NCBI GenBank assembly: GCA_020831765.1 | Contig: JAFIFY010000127.1 | Location: forward strand, 1 to 49,047 | DNA length: 49,047 nt | DNA from: Phycisphaeraceae bacterium | GTDB lineage: Bacteria; Planctomycetota; Phycisphaerae; Phycisphaerales; Phycisphaeraceae | Direction: 5' to 3' | Part shown: in pieces, positions 36,436 to 43,683 of the stretch | Numbering within the stretch: the stretch's first letter is position 1 | Layout: every line of letters begins with the position of its first letter | The notes under the pieces: model-generated | Told to the model about the DNA's origin: nothing | Seen by the model: only the letters and a program-made list of their open reading frames with translations | Databases searched by the model: none | Position numbers and translations under genes: made by a program

Positions 36436-37506
36436 TCAGGCACTTCGCCGGCGGGTGAGCAGGATAAGGCCACCAAGGCCCAGCAGCGCGACCGAGCCCG
36501 GCTCGGGCACCAGCGTCGGCCCTGACCAGTCAAAGCCGCTGTCACTGGTCACGCTGAAGTCGTCAACCGGCAGTCCGTCGGGGCCGAGGACCTCGTCAAA
36601 CCCCGGCCACTTGACCGTGTTACCGAACAGGCCCGAAGATGCGGCGGACCCGTAAGTCGTGCTGCTCTGGCCCGCGGAAGCAACAACGTTCAACTGTCCC
36701 CTTACTTGGAAAGGTTCACCGAACACGAACGCTGCCTCGACAATCAATGCGCCGCCGCTGGGATTCTCGCTGAATTCCAGGATCGACCCATCACTTTGGC
36801 GAGATCGTGAGCGGAATCCATTGATCTGCTCGAAGAAAGCTGGCGACCAGGTCGGGCCGAGGCCGAAAATGGACTTGGTAAAATTCCAAGTCGCGGAGGC
36901 GGTCGTGTTGCCCGACATCGCCAGCGCTCCCGACACGTTAACGATCGCGGTCAGCGTGCCCAACTGACCGGTGAGACCCGGGCTCGATATCGTGACCGTG
37001 TCCACGTAGCGGCCGGAGGCTGAGCCTTGGGCCCTATACACCTCGTCGGCGAAGGGGCCGCCGCCCTCCGGACCGGGGAAGTTAATCGAGGCGCCGGTAT
37101 TGGCAGGAATAAACCCCAGCCCCACCGCCGCGCTCGCGACGCCGTCACCGCTTCCGGTGCTGGTGCTTGCGAACTGCGACACCAGATCGGTCGGCCCAGC
37201 GTTCAGTCGTTCGTCAGAGTTCGAAGCGGTCTCTACCGGGAATTGAAACGGCCTGGCAAGAGCACTTGTGGTTACCTCCAGGGTTGCTGCCGAGGCCCCG
37301 ACATGGGCCTGACCCATGAATGTTGCGGCCAGAACCAGCGCGGCGATCCGGCCCTGTCGCCCCGCCCGGGCCGGCGCGAGATTGGGCGCTGGAATGGGCG
37401 ACATTGCGTTGCGCGGCGACACAAGGTCAGACTTGGCCGAGAACGACCACCGGGGCCCGGTGGCAGCGCCCAACGGGGAAAAGACAATCGCGGTGATACA
37501 GCACAT
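36436..37506 (-). CDS. PEP-CTERM sorting-domain protein
   Basis: A 356-residue secreted protein with the C-terminal anchor LVPEPGSVALLGLGGLILLTRRRSA: the PEP motif, a membrane helix and a basic tail, recognised by exosortase. A hydrophobic signal segment, RIAALVLAATFMGQAHVGASA, lies at about residues 53-73. The middle is a beta-rich, Gly/Ser/Thr-rich domain with no known fold. The start at ATG 37506 has AGGAG 6 nt upstream and gives an unusually long region before the signal segment; an inner ATG at 37404 without a ribosome site would give a shorter one. It would be exported and fixed to the envelope or matrix. No exosortase gene is in the window. Confidence 0.85.
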   Translation of the reverse strand: MCCITAIVFSPLGAATGPRWSFSAKSDLVSPRNAMSPIPAPNLAPARAGRQGRIAALVLAATFMGQAHVGASAATLEVTTSALARPFQFPVETASNSDERLNAGPTDLVSQFASTSTGSGDGVASAAVGLGFIPANTGASINFPGPEGGGPFADEVYRAQGSASGRYVDTVTISSPGLTGQLGTLTAIVNVSGALAMSGNTTASATWNFTKSIFGLGPTWSPAFFEQINGFRSRSRQSDGSILEFSENPSGGALIVEAAFVFGEPFQVRGQLNVVASAGQSSTTYGSAASSGLFGNTVKWPGFDEVLGPDGLPVDDFSVTSDSGFDWSGPTLVPEPGSVALLGLGGLILLTRRRSA

Positions 37507-38040: not shown

Positions 38041-38116
38041 TCCTCCCTCCAAATCTTTGTGGATCACTGCCTCCGTGCGACATCCTGATGCATGATCTCA
38101 CCAAGGCGCGGAGGTG
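38041..38116. repeat. Partial palindromic unit (U1a)
   Basis: Contains TCTTTGTGGATCACTGCCTC, a centre CATCCTGATGCATGATCTC and the right arm CCAAGGCGCGGAGG. It matches the first of the three hairpins of the full composite repeat (same arms, same CTGATGCATG centre) but lacks the second and third hairpins. Confidence 0.6.
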
Positions 38117-38190
38117 GGGAGCGATAGATTCACGGGCTCATGTCCACTGCGATGGACCGGCAGGATCGGCCGAGTTGCTTTGGCTCCCCT

Positions 38191-38481
38191 TCCTCCTTCC
38201 AAAAACTTTGTGCCTTGGTGCCTCCGTGAGAGACCTTGATGTATGCTCGCTCAAAGGCTCGAAGTGGATTTCTACACCAATCAGGAGGAAGTCCACACCC
38301 CACGGCTTCCTTTTTCGCGTGTTTCGCGTGTTTCGTAGAAGTTTCACTCTGAATCCTAAGCCCGCGCGGCAATGATCCGGCCGCGCGCGGATGCTTGGCC
38401 GATCGGCGGTATTCCACTGCCACCGCCACTGGCCGGACCAAGACAATCTTCAAACGACGAAACACGCGAAAATCGCGAAAG
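38191..38481. repeat. Composite palindromic repeat, copy A
   Basis: Three imperfect inverted repeats in a row. U1: arms around 38206-38228 and 38252-38263 with core GAGAGACCTTGATGTATG. Middle: GTGGATTTC (38264-38272) against GGAAGTCCAC (38287-38296). U2: a run of TTTCGCGTG-type repeats (38311-38338) against the complementary CGAAACACGCGAA-type run (38454-38480), enclosing about 115 bases that include CCGGCCGCGCGCGGATGC. Copy B at 43391-43683 has the same order and about 80-90 % identity by eye in the U2 core. Confidence 0.75.
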
Positions 38482-38566
38482 TGGGAACAAGAGAACAGGG
38501 CCACAGCGCGACGTATCGACTTGCCCACACCTGGCCGGGGCGCACCTCGATCTCTTCAACTTCCGA

Positions 38567-38629
38567 AATCTTCGTGCCTCCGCGAGAGACTCTGATGCAT
38601 GCTCTCACCAAGGCACGGAGCCACCGAGA
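38567..38629. repeat. Partial palindromic unit (U1c) abutting a stop codon
   Basis: Carries TCTTCGTGCCTCCGCGAGAG, CTGATGCATG, CTCTCACCAAGGCACGGAG. The inner stem GAGAG/CTCTC and the outer GTGCCT/AGGCAC arms can pair. It ends next to the stop codon (38630-38632) of the minus-strand 1012-residue gene, so it forms the first part of that gene's 3' untranslated region and might act as terminator or mRNA stabiliser. Confidence 0.6.
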
Positions 38630-41600
38630 TCATCGCGTGGCCGGTGCTCGGCGTGAGTTGGTGTTGGTTACGATGATGGTGCCGATTCGTGGACCGTCGT
38701 TGCCGTGCTGCCGGGCGCCGAAGTGGATCGTGTGTTTGCCCGGCTCCTTGAGTTCCAGGCCGCGGCTTTGCCAGGTCCATTCCTGGTTGCCGATCGCGGT
38801 CCAGGTCCATTGCTCATCGTTTCCTCCGCGAATCCAGGCCGAATCATTGCTCCCCGCGTTGCCCCAGCAGTAGTAATGAACTTCGTAGCGACCCGGCTGC
38901 GAGCCGATGTCGATGGTGAAGGAGAAACTGAGGTCCGGATCGATGACGTTGTCCGTGCTGCTGCGCACGGGCACCAGGATGCGGCCGCCGGGCGCATCAT
39001 CATCAGCGCGAAGTTCCCAGTGCTTACCCAGCGTGATCTTGTCGAAATCGATCTCGACGTGGAAATTGCGTTCGTGCGTGGTGCCAGCCGCCATCGGGGA
39101 GGGGTCGGAGGCGAAGGCCGGGTTGTGTGCCAGCACCCGGAAGTGGCGGGTTTCGCCATTGGACATCCCGCCGGCCTCAAAGTGCAGCACATCGGCGGGC
39201 GTGCGCCCGATCTGCCGCCAGGTCTTGCCGCCGTCGGTGCTGCTCTGGACGGTGTGGTGCCGTATATCCGTGCCGCCGCTGGCTTCCCAGTACACACGAA
39301 CAGCGCGGTTATTGATCGTCCAGGTCCGCACGTTGGTCGGTGCCGGCGGGGTCGCATCGCCCACGGCGAAATAACGCTGCACGGACAGGGCGGGAATGTG
39401 GGCGGCGTTTCCATCCTGGTGGGCGGTCACCCACACAATGCCGGGCTCACCTTCGAGGACCAGTTCCTGCCCGTCCACCCGGGCCGGGCCGCTGTCCACC
39501 TCGTAGCGGACTTGCAATCCGGAGCTGGAGGCAGCGCCCAGGGTGATCCGGCCCGGCTTGCCCGGCTGATTCTCGATCTCGGGAAACTCGATCGTCTGCG
39601 GTTGCGGCACCGGGCGCCCGGCCTCCGCCATCCGCGCGGCGATGCGGTTGAACTCGATCAGATTCAGCGCAACTTCGGCCGGCAGAACCGCATACGCATG
39701 GCCGCTCCAAAGCCGTACATCGCGTTGATCCCACACCGATGAGTCCCAGATCACCCCGGTGCGGGGGCGATACATGGAATGGACCGTGTGGAAAAGCTGG
39801 CCCGCCTTGCGAAGGTACTCGTCACTGTCCGTCTTCTCGGCCGCCGCCAGATAGATCAGCGCCATCCGCATGGTGCCGACCGTCTCCATGCCCGTCGGGC
39901 CCCGCGATTGGTAATAGCTGATTCGGGGAAGCCGATCCGGTCCCTCGTGCCAGAGCATTTCCGCCCATTCGATCGTCGCGGCGAACAATTCGGGATCCCA
40001 CTTGTCGGCATACCGCAACTGGTACAGGGCATAGAACATTGGGCCATCATCATCGGGACGCGATCCATCGCTTCGACCTTCGATCAGGTACCGGCGTCCC
40101 TGATGCGTCACGCCCTCCAGCAGCGCTTTGCGCATCCAGGTGGCGGCGCGCTCCTCGACATCGCGGTAGTCCTCCACGCCCAGTTCCGTGCGAATGCGTC
40201 CGAGCAGCTCCAGCCACATTCCGTTTGCGCGGGGGACGTTGTCCCAACTGCGATCGTGACGGCTCAGCGTCGTGCCCACTTCACCGCTTTGCGCCGAGAC
40301 GTAGCTCCAACTGCCGTGCTCATCCTGTGTGTGACGCAAGGCATCGGCCACTTCCAGGGCTCGGGCCTTCCAGAAGTCCGACTCGGTAATGACCGCCAGG
40401 TCCACCAGCGCCCGGCCCATCCAGTATTGGGGCCGGAACATGGTCTTGTAGGTTGGCAGCAGGTTGTACGGCCCGACCCGGTGCGAGAGGATGTAGTGGC
40501 CCGCCCGTTGCGCGGTCATCAGAGCCTGGGCGCGCAGGAGCGGATCATCACTGGTCTGCACGACCGCCCGCATGGCCATCGGCCCGAACCCGCCGACCAT
40601 GGGCGGGTCGCAATAATCCTTGCTCCCGGTGTTCCGCACATCGCCCAGCGCCAGATCATTGCCGAACAGGCCGCCGCCGTACGGATTCACATCCGTCAGC
40701 CATCGCAGGTGCGTCCGCAACTCATTCTCGCCGCGCATGCCATCGGCCTGTTCCCGCAGCGGAAACGCAAGGTGTCCGCTTCGCCCCCAATAACCGGCGA
40801 CTTCCTGAGCGCCGTGATCCTCATCACCGACGATCCGATACCGCCCGAAAACCAGATCGCCCACACGATGCAGTTCCATGTGATAGGTGACCGGCCCTCC
40901 GTCGTACACGGCCTCGATGGTCAGCCTGCCTTGGTTCACGTCGCCGGAAATCTTCGGGTTCTTCAGATTGCTGACATCCTCAGTCGTTCCGCGAGGACCA
41001 TCCACGGCGTGATATCCCACCCTTCCGCCGGCGAGCACCACCCGCATCGATTGCCGGGTGTGACGACTTGCGGCATGGGTGCTGGAATCGATGAGGGTAA
41101 TCGCCTGGGGTCGACCTTCCTTGAGGGTGATGCCGGCAATGGCCCGGCTATGGCGATTCCATCGGCCGCCATCGGCATGACCGGGAAGGGGATTGCGGAT
41201 GTAGAGCGTGAGGTGATCGGCCTTGGACCATTCGGGCAACGGAACCAGCATGCCATGCACTTCTCCGTCGGCGGCGTGTTTGTCACTGCCCCGGGCATCG
41301 GTCCATTCGTACCGGCCGCGCAGGATGTATTCGTCCCGCGTCACGTTCAGGCCGATGGCGAACTCGTCGCCATGCTTGAGCGATCCCCGAAGTCGCGAGC
41401 CATCCCAGGTCAGATCATCAACCGCGACCGCATCGACCCGCAAGTTGCCGGCGGGCTCGCCACGCTGGCGACCGGTCCGATACGGCTCGGTCACCGCCGC
41501 CGCGCGCAGTTGGTCGCCCTTCACCTCCAGAATGACCAGCACCGGCGAGTGGTGTACTGATGCTCCAAGAAGGTTCAGATGAATGGCCTGGACCTCATCG

Positions 41601-41668
41601 GCTGCGGCGCGCGAGGAAAAAGCCGTGATGGCCGCCAGCCCGACGGCAACCAACAGAATCCGCATCAT
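38630..41668 (-). CDS. Large secreted protein: six-hairpin (alpha/alpha-barrel) domain, FN3 and carbohydrate-binding-like modules
   Basis: A 1012-residue exported protein, family not recognised exactly. Signal peptide MMRILLVAVGLAAITAFSSRAAA. Residues about 25-325 are beta-rich. About 330-690 are helical repeats resembling an (alpha/alpha)6 toroid of glycoside hydrolases and polysaccharide lyases (QYWMGRALVDLAVIT, ARALEVADALRHTQDEHGSWSY, WAEMLWHEGPDRLPRISYYQ, GMETVGTMRMALIYL, LWSGHAYAVLPAEVALNLIEF). A linker leads to a fibronectin-III domain (about 780-865, APTNVRTWTINNRAVRVYWEAS) and a C-terminal CBM35-like sandwich (YEVHYYCWGNAGSNDSAWIRG... LKEPGKHTIHFGARQ). It likely attacks an acidic polysaccharide; the reaction is unknown. 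ATG 41668 has GGAG 8 nt upstream; an upstream in-frame ATG (41701) does not. Repeats lie at its 3' side. Confidence 0.7.
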   Translation of the reverse strand: MMRILLVAVGLAAITAFSSRAAADEVQAIHLNLLGASVHHSPVLVILEVKGDQLRAAAVTEPYRTGRQRGEPAGNLRVDAVAVDDLTWDGSRLRGSLKHGDEFAIGLNVTRDEYILRGRYEWTDARGSDKHAADGEVHGMLVPLPEWSKADHLTLYIRNPLPGHADGGRWNRHSRAIAGITLKEGRPQAITLIDSSTHAASRHTRQSMRVVLAGGRVGYHAVDGPRGTTEDVSNLKNPKISGDVNQGRLTIEAVYDGGPVTYHMELHRVGDLVFGRYRIVGDEDHGAQEVAGYWGRSGHLAFPLREQADGMRGENELRTHLRWLTDVNPYGGGLFGNDLALGDVRNTGSKDYCDPPMVGGFGPMAMRAVVQTSDDPLLRAQALMTAQRAGHYILSHRVGPYNLLPTYKTMFRPQYWMGRALVDLAVITESDFWKARALEVADALRHTQDEHGSWSYVSAQSGEVGTTLSRHDRSWDNVPRANGMWLELLGRIRTELGVEDYRDVEERAATWMRKALLEGVTHQGRRYLIEGRSDGSRPDDDGPMFYALYQLRYADKWDPELFAATIEWAEMLWHEGPDRLPRISYYQSRGPTGMETVGTMRMALIYLAAAEKTDSDEYLRKAGQLFHTVHSMYRPRTGVIWDSSVWDQRDVRLWSGHAYAVLPAEVALNLIEFNRIAARMAEAGRPVPQPQTIEFPEIENQPGKPGRITLGAASSSGLQVRYEVDSGPARVDGQELVLEGEPGIVWVTAHQDGNAAHIPALSVQRYFAVGDATPPAPTNVRTWTINNRAVRVYWEASGGTDIRHHTVQSSTDGGKTWRQIGRTPADVLHFEAGGMSNGETRHFRVLAHNPAFASDPSPMAAGTTHERNFHVEIDFDKITLGKHWELRADDDAPGGRILVPVRSSTDNVIDPDLSFSFTIDIGSQPGRYEVHYYCWGNAGSNDSAWIRGGNDEQWTWTAIGNQEWTWQSRGLELKEPGKHTIHFGARQHGNDGPRIGTIIVTNTNSRRAPATR

Positions 41669-41841
41669 GATGATCACTCCGACTGTTGTCTTATCACTCA
41701 TCGGGATGGCCGCCTTTCATTGTCATTACGTGGAATCGCACGCGCCGGCCGGGATCGGCCCGGCGCTGGCGCGGGGAGGGCTCCATGCGTCGCGTTCTCT
41801 TCAAAGGATCGAATCGTCCTATGGTCCATAGATCACCCATA

Positions 41842-41869
41842 ATTGTATACTAATTCACATTCAGGTCAA
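41842..41869 (-). promoter_or_regulatory. Promoter of the 1012-residue secreted protein gene
   Basis: On the minus strand TTGACC (41864-41869) and TACAAT (41842-41847) are spaced by 16 nt, the best sigma-70-type match in the accessory region, in an AT-rich island. The odd palindrome CTATGG-T-CCATAG (41819-41831) lies just downstream of the -10, where an operator would sit. The leader would be about 165 nt. Confidence 0.6.
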
Positions 41870-42172
41870 CAGGGGATTTCCGTGACCCGTGGTGAAGGCC
41901 GCGGACCGGAAACTGGCGGCCGGGCTGAGCCTCGCGGATCGGCATTGCATCACGGGCTTGGGCGTTCGGAACGCGGATCGCGGTGAACCTCATGCGCTGG
42001 GGGCGACGGGGGGTTGGTCAAGTGGACTTGGCGTGGGGATGATCGTGCCCGGTAAGTGCATGTTATGGCATGGCTTGTATTATTCCAAGTGACGGGCGAG
42101 CCGGCGCCTCGCGGGGCAATCCGCCGAACGGCCCGCACGCTGGCGGGAAGGGCGAACACCTCGCAAAGCCCG

Positions 42173-42184
42173 CCAACATGTTGG
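42173..42184. promoter_or_regulatory. 12-bp palindrome upstream of the PEP-CTERM gene
   Basis: CCAACATGTTGG is a perfect inverted repeat centred about 50 bases upstream of an extended -10 element (TGGTATGCT, 42224-42232). It could bind a dimeric regulator. Position and symmetry are the only evidence. Confidence 0.3.
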
Positions 42185-42314
42185 AATTCGTGATATGAAT
42201 GGCTGGATTGCTTTCGAAGCGTGTGGTATGCTTTGGTCCCAATCGGGACGGATTCGCGGCGTGGCGGCTGGGGATGCATTGATCCTCCGGCCCCCTGCAA
42301 AAGGAGAGTGAAAG

Positions 42315-43250
42315 ATGAGAGCGCCAAAATTACTACTTGCATCGGTATCGACCGCGGGCCTTCTGCTCGGCGCTGCCGCCGACCCGGCCAGTGCGAGCCT
42401 GATTCTTTACGATGGTTTCCCAGCCGGCGGCGACTCGCCCACGGCGGGGCAATACCAGTCGGAGCCGGCCTCGACGACCGGTGCAAACAATGATGCACTG
42501 CATGGCCAAGGCCCGGACTTGCTCGGGTTCAGCAGCGCCGATGCGTGGAGCAATCAGAGTCCTGTGGCCGCCACCGTTTATCCGCGGGTCAACAGCACCG
42601 GCCTGGAGTGGAGCAACGCTGCGGGGACGCAGTTTCTGATCACGGCAGAGGGCGCAGCGGAAATCTTCCGGGATGGAAGTAGTACTGGCGACCTGGCCAA
42701 GGGTGTTATCCGAGACGTGAGTCCAGCTTTAGGTGGTCTTGGCGCCACCTACTACATGAGTGGCCTGTTGCAGTTTTCCGAGGGAACCGAAGGCACAGTG
42801 CGGCTGGTGGTGGGGCGCCAGCAGGCCGGTGGCCCCCGGGAGCATTTCTTCGGGTTCAACAGCGACGGCAATCTCATCGCCGGCTCGGACACCGGCCAGT
42901 TTGGTATAAGTTCGGAGGTCTTTGATGCCGATACCGCGCACCTGATCATCGCTCGGTTCCACGATGGTGGGATCGGCAACCGAAGTGTCGATGTCTGGAT
43001 CAACCCCCAGGATCTGACCGATCCCGGCGCTGCCAACTATACGTTCGATGCGGATCACGCTACCGTTCTGAATCTCAATGCCCTTCGCCTGTTCGCTGAA
43101 ACGGGGCAAGGCGTGCAGGATCCTTCCTTCATCTTCGATGAGATTCGCCTCGGTACGAGCTTCGCAGCGGTCACCCCTTGGATTCCCGAGCCGGCATCGC
43201 TGGCACTGTTGGGGATCAGCGGCCTGGTGCTGCTGCGTCGCCGACGCTGA
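42315..43250 (+). CDS. PEP-CTERM sorting-domain protein, lectin-like beta domain
   Basis: A 311-residue exported protein. Signal peptide LLLASVSTAGLLLGAAADPASA, then a beta-rich domain from LILYDGFPAGGDS; a start with YDGF and later FIFDEIRLGTSF resembles concanavalin/LamG-like lectin domains often found in planctomycete PEP-CTERM proteins. The C-terminus is IPEPASLALLGISGLVLLRRRR: PEP motif, membrane helix, arginine tail. Exosortase would cut and anchor it. Strong AGGAG site about 8-9 nt before the ATG. A terminator follows 59 bases after the stop. It is divergent from the large secreted enzyme. Confidence 0.9.
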   Translation: MRAPKLLLASVSTAGLLLGAAADPASASLILYDGFPAGGDSPTAGQYQSEPASTTGANNDALHGQGPDLLGFSSADAWSNQSPVAATVYPRVNSTGLEWSNAAGTQFLITAEGAAEIFRDGSSTGDLAKGVIRDVSPALGGLGATYYMSGLLQFSEGTEGTVRLVVGRQQAGGPREHFFGFNSDGNLIAGSDTGQFGISSEVFDADTAHLIIARFHDGGIGNRSVDVWINPQDLTDPGAANYTFDADHATVLNLNALRLFAETGQGVQDPSFIFDEIRLGTSFAAVTPWIPEPASLALLGISGLVLLRRRR

Positions 43251-43308
43251 TCGCCTGAACGGAACGCTCGATGCCATGAGCGTGCGACATACTGAAATGG
43301 ACATGAAC

Positions 43309-43338
43309 AAGGGACCCGCCCCGCGGCGGCTCCCTTTT
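43309..43338 (+). terminator. Rho-independent terminator after the PEP-CTERM gene
   Basis: Stem AAGGGA-C-CCGCC, loop CCGC, GGCGG-C-TCCCTT (11 pairs with one internal mismatch), followed by TT and TGC. It lies 58 bases after the stop. A second small hairpin, ACGCTC/GAGCGT (43264-43283), lies just before it. Confidence 0.75.
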
Positions 43339-43390
43339 GCATGGTGCGCTCGGGCTTGAGGTAGTTCCACCGGCCAAGCCGCTTGCTTTC

Positions 43391-43683
43391 CTTCTTCCAA
43401 ACCTTTGTGCCTCCGTGCCTCCGTGCGAGACCTTGATGCATGCCTCTCATAAAGGCACGGAGATCACGGAGTGGATTTCGCGACCAATCGTGGGGAAGTC
43501 CACCACGTCCCCCGCCTCCATTTTTTCGCGTGTTTCGCGTGTTTCGTAGTTGTTTCACTCTGAATCCTGCGCCTGCGCATCAGTGTTCCGGCCGCGCGCG
43601 GATGCTTGGCCGATCGGCGGTATTCCACTGCCGCCGCCCCTGGCCGGACCAAGACAATCCTCAAACCACGAAACACGCGAAAG
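43391..43683. repeat. Composite palindromic repeat, copy B
   Basis: Same order as copy A. U1: CTTTGTGCCTCCGTGCCTCC left arm (about 43403-43425), core GAGACCTTGATGCATGCC, right arm AAAGGCACGGAGATCACGGA (43451-43470). Middle: GTGGATTTC (43471-43479) against GGAAGTCCAC (43494-43503). U2: TTTCGCGTG-type run (43521-43549) against CACGAAACACGCGAAA (43667-43682). The U1 arms are better paired here than in copy A. It fills the gap between the PEP-CTERM terminator and the 43788 gene end; no gene lies in 43251-43787. Confidence 0.75.

Follow-up and report, generated by a model that had tools for sequence, protein, structure and literature searches.

Rickettsia palindromic elements are palindromes that are able to sit in frame inside proteins. 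Among other small palindromes, REP/REPIN and TIR repeats go with RAYT or TIRYT transposase genes (PMC3733652, PMC3116915), and CGTC-type repeats have no known transposase (PMC3733652). Intervening sequences of 23S rRNA are found with an S23 protein gene (PMC4990558). We analyzed a 49,047-nt stretch of a Phycisphaeraceae genome (contig JAFIFY010000127.1), referred to here as the window, in which two palindromic units, U1 and U2, recur. Like MITEs, these elements are short, non-coding, multi-copy and intergenic, with inverted ends, and they have gene-bearing kin with the same ends. Unlike those of MITEs, these gene-bearing kin have a gene for a PD-(D/E)XK nuclease instead of a transposase gene, target-site duplication was not seen, and the arms are tandem 8- to 10-mers that vary between copies. 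On balance, we favor the view that the window repeats belong, as non-autonomous, MITE-like members, to a broad palindromic class linked to GxxExxY genes. Elements of this class are small and end in inverted arms that consist of two to four tandem 8- to 10-bp words. We read them in this way because U1 flanks a GxxExxY gene both in its own genome and in that of a relative, and because gene-less and gene-bearing kin share their ends. Those members of the class that bear a gene have only one, for the GxxExxY PD-(D/E)XK nuclease, and no transposase. Membership of U1 in the class is well supported; U2 is assigned by its architecture only, and less firmly.

A preliminary description of the window had reported two copies, A and B, each with a U1 hairpin, a middle hairpin and a U2 palindrome in that order, as well as two lone U1 units. 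We found all of these, with their arms, at the places given, and all copies lie in gaps between convincing ORFs, as had been claimed (Table 1). Between copies A and B, 278 bases align with 88% identity and a score of 333 (at most 27 in 200 shuffles). The extent of the unit had to be revised. Copies A and B are real, but the true unit is larger (38206–38628): the whole U1-hairpin-U2-spacer-U1 stretch recurs on contig C131 with 79% identity over ~436 bp, and the downstream “lone” U1 is the right border of copy A. The corresponding right-hand U1 is missing from copy B. The stretch that runs from the upstream lone U1 to the U1 of copy A also recurs, on contig C155. From these two recurrences of U1-bounded stretches, we concluded that the window holds a small array, U1-p1-U1-p2-U1, and a partial second copy. 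Each U1 is made up of a right end (CTTTGTGC CTCCGTGC CTCCGTGA), ~20 bases that include TTGATGCATG, and a left end (TCACCAAGGCACCAAGGCAC). Two ORFs beside the repeats, at 36436-37506 and 42315-43250, have a borderline PEP-CTERM sorting motif at the C terminus.

Table 1. Parts of the palindromic array, with positions numbered from the first base of the window
Feature	Position	Strand	Evidence
U1 unit 1 (upstream lone U1 of the preliminary description)	38055..38121	+	covariance-model match, 72.6 bits
Short cassette p1, flanked by U1 units 1 and 2	38122..38205	+	U1-p1-U1 75% identical to a stretch of C155
U1 unit 2, start of copy A	38206..38264	+	covariance-model match, 73.4 bits
Middle hairpin of copy A, GTGGATTTC / GAAGTCCAC	38264..38296	+	repeat family D6, 81% identical to the copy B hairpin
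U2 of copy A, with tandem 9-mers (TTTCGCGTG) as inverted arms round a core of constant length	38312..38481	+	repeats D1 and I3; core aligns without gaps to other U2 copies
Spacer completing the U1-hairpin-U2-spacer-U1 unit	38482..38559	+	conserved on contig C131
U1 unit 3, bordering copy A on the right	38560..38628	+	covariance-model match, 62.3 bits; same position in C131
U1 unit 4, start of copy B	43403..43470	+	covariance-model match, 79.9 bits
Middle hairpin of copy B	43471..43503	+	repeat family D6
U2 of copy B	43523..43683	+	repeat D1, 92% identical to copy A over 161 nt

The repeats are confined neither to the two loci first described nor to this genome. In this 4.7-Mb genome, a DNA search combined with a covariance model gave ~11 sites of U1, and U2 is present as ~11 full copies and ~8 end fragments. 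Among relatives, the covariance model detected U1-like units that are clear in one genome of the same family (G002) and possible in G050. For U2, 40 relatives yielded nothing beyond arm-like traces in one. Hence, the palindromes are dispersed, intergenic and multi-copy, with inverted ends and with kin in relatives, and the MITE- or REP-like nature proposed for them at the outset is supported. We rejected the U2 core as coding sequence, since stops interrupt all or most frames of its copies. In two places, U2 units follow one another with similar spacers of ~140 bp near contig ends (L012 and L016, on contigs C148 and C17), and the assembly may therefore have collapsed a longer array. CACCACGAAG...CTTCGTGGTG arms mark a third repeat family, which occurs at four loci of the same genome (L013, L023, L198 and L058, on contigs C178, C90, C159 and C181); its copy on C181 borders a broken fragment of a GxxExxY gene.

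The preliminary description had left room for a structured RNA instead of a mobile element, noting that each U1 keeps its pairing potential despite base changes. Pairing is indeed kept, in 93% of cells in U1 and 95% in the U2 arms. However, the compensatory changes that it called for are essentially absent within this genome (1 of 15 pairs among U1 copies and 1 of 19 pairs in U2 arms). Neither count exceeds that of shuffles, and covariation among the own-genome copies is therefore no proof of an RNA. When the window U1 units were folded, two were more stable than shuffled sequence (z of -4.0 and -3.2), whereas the other two hardly were (z of -1.3). Searches of Rfam returned chance-level matches only. 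An RNA kept for its function in transcripts, such as an mRNA hairpin, a terminator or an IVS-like processed segment, would fit the high pairing, the frequent position of GxxExxY elements inside apparent operons, and the constant length of the U2 core: nine aligned cores contain no gaps, although two subfamilies diverge strongly in sequence. The shuffle-level covariation, the poor folding of half of the window U1 units and the missing Rfam match speak against such an RNA, as does the scatter of sites among unrelated genes. We consider it improbable, and of the two original proposals we retain the MITE-like one.

A palindromic site, U1, that alternates with short cassettes or a gene is reminiscent of attC sites in integrons. 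In this genome, nothing scored above the curated TIGR02249 cut-off for the integron integrase IntI, and we rejected integron cassettes as an explanation. The attC core sites RYYYAAC and GTTRRRY are also absent from the U1 consensus, as judged by eye.

With no transposase in the window, the mobilizing enzyme had been predicted to lie elsewhere. We identified a concrete candidate, although its role in movement is inferred. The genome has one intact and one broken gene of the GxxExxY family (TIGR04256/PF13366), which is, to our knowledge, a large conserved protein family without a known role. The intact gene, on contig C32, sits directly between two U1 units of the same orientation, and the leader from the arm to the gene resembles the left flank of the window U1. 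The arrangement is repeated in G002, where a GxxExxY gene on contig C11 likewise has U1-like units on both sides; other, gene-less U1-like units are present elsewhere in the genome. The C32 protein matches PF13366 (5.9e-39) and TIGR04256 (2.0e-39). Its high-confidence structural model (mean pLDDT, 95.9) has a PD-(D/E)XK nuclease fold, most similar to the Cas4-type nuclease SSO0001 (Z, 9.1) and also similar to the Hjc resolvase (Z, 6.7); ranks this close are not decisive. Residues E28, D68, E78 and K80 are invariant in 50 GxxExxY sequences, and the active site is therefore probably intact. GxxExxY proteins from Planctomycetota, Verrucomicrobiota, Deltaproteobacteria, Spirochaetes and Cyanobacteria are 60-77% identical, which suggests that the family has spread horizontally.

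Gene-bearing relatives with the same ends were found for U1 (on C32, in G002 and in G038). For U2 there was none: the best score for a GxxExxY gene with U2-type arms was 26, which is not a convincing match. In G002, the decamer pattern CATCTGYGTTYATCTGYGG had 114 matches, compared with 0 for the reversed control. We fetched 20 of these places, and 19 proved to be elements with the common ends TTTAGCCGCAGATGAACGCAGATG ... CATCTGCGTTCATCTGCGGCTAAA, 91-188 bp long (456 bp in one case). Eighteen of the TTTAGCCGCAGATGAACGCAGATG / CATCTGCGTTCATCTGCGGCTAAA elements are gene-less and one encloses a GxxExxY gene; the border sequence just inside the arms is also common to both kinds. Several of the gene-less elements hold a second palindrome of another word, a nesting like that of U1, hairpin and U2 in the window. 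Similarly, several gene-less elements in G038 have TCTCACGGAGGCACGGAGGCAC ends identical to those of its one GxxExxY element. A check for target-site duplications had been suggested, and we found none in the 19 G002 elements (mean of 1.6 nt, equal to that of shuffled pairs). Some element types make no target-site duplication.

We then asked how general inverted arms are round GxxExxY genes, using 107 such genes with enough flank, 68 from the own genome and relatives (family and order) and 39 from other phyla. For each, the stretch before the gene was compared with the stretch after it, and the pairing was compared with that of 100 shuffles. Flanking inverted arms beat all 100 shuffles for 85 of the 107 genes, compared with 0 of 60 other ORFs of the same loci; the remaining 22 GxxExxY genes had no detectable arms. 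The arms lie a median of 11 bases beyond the stop codon. Their words are tandem, with a length of 8 bases in 46 of 78 arms, 9 in 15 and 10 in 12 (8-10 nt in 73 of 78). The mean score of cognate arm pairs was 41.6, compared with 18.9 for swaps between genomes, and among 13 genomes with at least two armed copies, every swap within the same genome scored below the cognate pair in 34 of 35 cases. We concluded that arms are copy-specific and yet matched to each other. The arms of gene-bearing kin thus co-vary strongly between copies, unlike those of U1 and U2 in the own genome. In principle, replication slippage and template switching might generate U1 and U2 passively, with no enzyme, and template switching at hairpins would be expected to maintain matched arms with copy-specific words. 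Mutation alone is not expected to link the arms to one gene family (85 of 107 versus 0 of 60), nor to yield dispersed copies with fixed ends and a common inner sequence, and we regard passive origin as highly improbable.

Because arm sequence differs between copies, a sequence-specific enzyme is unlikely, and only a structure-specific one would fit. In the reading that we prefer, the nuclease would act on the arms when they are folded into a hairpin or cruciform, and would start the spread of the element by breakage and repair. U1, and possibly U2, may have spread in trans, or may be remnants or duplicates of such units. In G015, the decamer motif has 40 matches, yet the arms of the one GxxExxY gene in that genome are of another motif, which argues that the gene is not needed in cis. 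We infer from comparison of sequences, rather than from observed transposition or excision, that the nuclease moves the palindromes. GxxExxY could instead be a homing-type passenger that inserts into hairpin sites of any sequence by recognizing their structure, with the palindromes arising and spreading by other means. Such a passenger would explain why arms are copy-specific even inside one genome and why many palindromes are gene-less, including those with motifs that have no GxxExxY partner in the genome (G015), and the fold does resemble Holliday-junction resolvases, among other PD-(D/E)XK nucleases. It would not explain the exact ends and inner border sequence common to gene-less and gene-bearing elements, and no other mobilizer of the palindromes was found (the transposase search of the own genome covered Y1 only). 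We consider a passenger rather unlikely. Whether the nuclease is mobilizer or passenger, copy-specific arms favor recognition of structure over sequence.

The other enzyme that we considered as a mobilizer was an IS200-like Y1 transposase (RAYT or TIRYT), which would make U1 and U2 REP or TIR elements. REPtrons and TIRtrons follow the same plan, with small intergenic palindromes and one gene bounded by matching ends (PMC3733652); like those repeats, the present palindromes occasionally insert within coding genes. Moreover, 49 of 61 relatives have Y1_Tnp matches. In contrast, the own genome (98% complete) has no Y1_Tnp match, the ends are not GTAG-tagged hairpins, and the partner gene has another fold. 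The inverted repeats at Y1_Tnp genes of relatives (16 of 25 genes, which also served as a positive control for the arm test) are of other kinds, and the Y1 loci that we fetched lack tandem-octamer arms, save for one distant stray cluster in L311. Absent from the own genome and with different ends in relatives, a Y1 transposase was rejected as the mobilizer, and we give this origin almost no credence.

We return to the GxxExxY nuclease as the preferred mobilizer. It is possible, if still doubtful, that the elements form a distinct mobile-element class with a structure-specific PD-(D/E)XK gene as its only gene, copy-specific arms of tandem oligomers, and neither transposase nor target-site duplication, and that this class is the source of hundreds of non-autonomous palindromes in many phyla. 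Our literature search covered open sources, with subscription journals outside its scope, and in these there was no description of a link between GxxExxY and palindromes; two open papers mention GxxExxY, neither of them apparently concerned with repeats, and PDDEXK_3 and six of the arm words had no mention. The repeats are therefore of a widespread and apparently undescribed kind. Many bacterial genomes contain scattered short palindromes of this kind, and the tight link gives the GxxExxY family a testable function and orphan palindromes a candidate mobilizer. If the nuclease moves or maintains palindromes through their structure, the route of transposition would be unusual and would explain why each copy has its own arm sequence.

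The 23S rRNA intervening sequences are similar to the gene-bearing elements in that a small ORF lies within an inverted repeat and there is no transposase. They differ in lying within rRNA, whereas the present elements are intergenic and carry a nuclease family. As a partner of U1 or U2, the S23/IVP protein was rejected: it has two good matches in the genome, and neither adjoins a U1 or U2. The two 23S rRNA IVP (S23) genes (L088 and L089, on contigs C4 and C170) adjoin other inverted repeats, made of tandem purine/pyrimidine words.

At what appear by eye to be the same gene junctions, GxxExxY genes with different arms occur in different genomes, for example at lysS/lolC, groEL/dnaJ and hisC/hisB (L075, L077, L081, L082 and L086; L061, L064 and L066; L060 and L078). 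On contig C20 of G050, multi-word octamer palindromes cluster within 8 kb (positions 115070-123318; L204, L208, L210 and L213), and the contig also has a divergent GxxExxY gene. A loop of the tRNA-dihydrouridine synthase gene, dus, has different in-frame insertions in three relatives, G046, G050 and G054 (L228, L231 and L232), and none in G037 and G042. In-frame palindromes inside a protein are a likeness to the Rickettsia palindromic elements, from which the present elements differ in sequence and arm design. The dus insertions of G046 and G050 are clear tandem-octamer palindromes.
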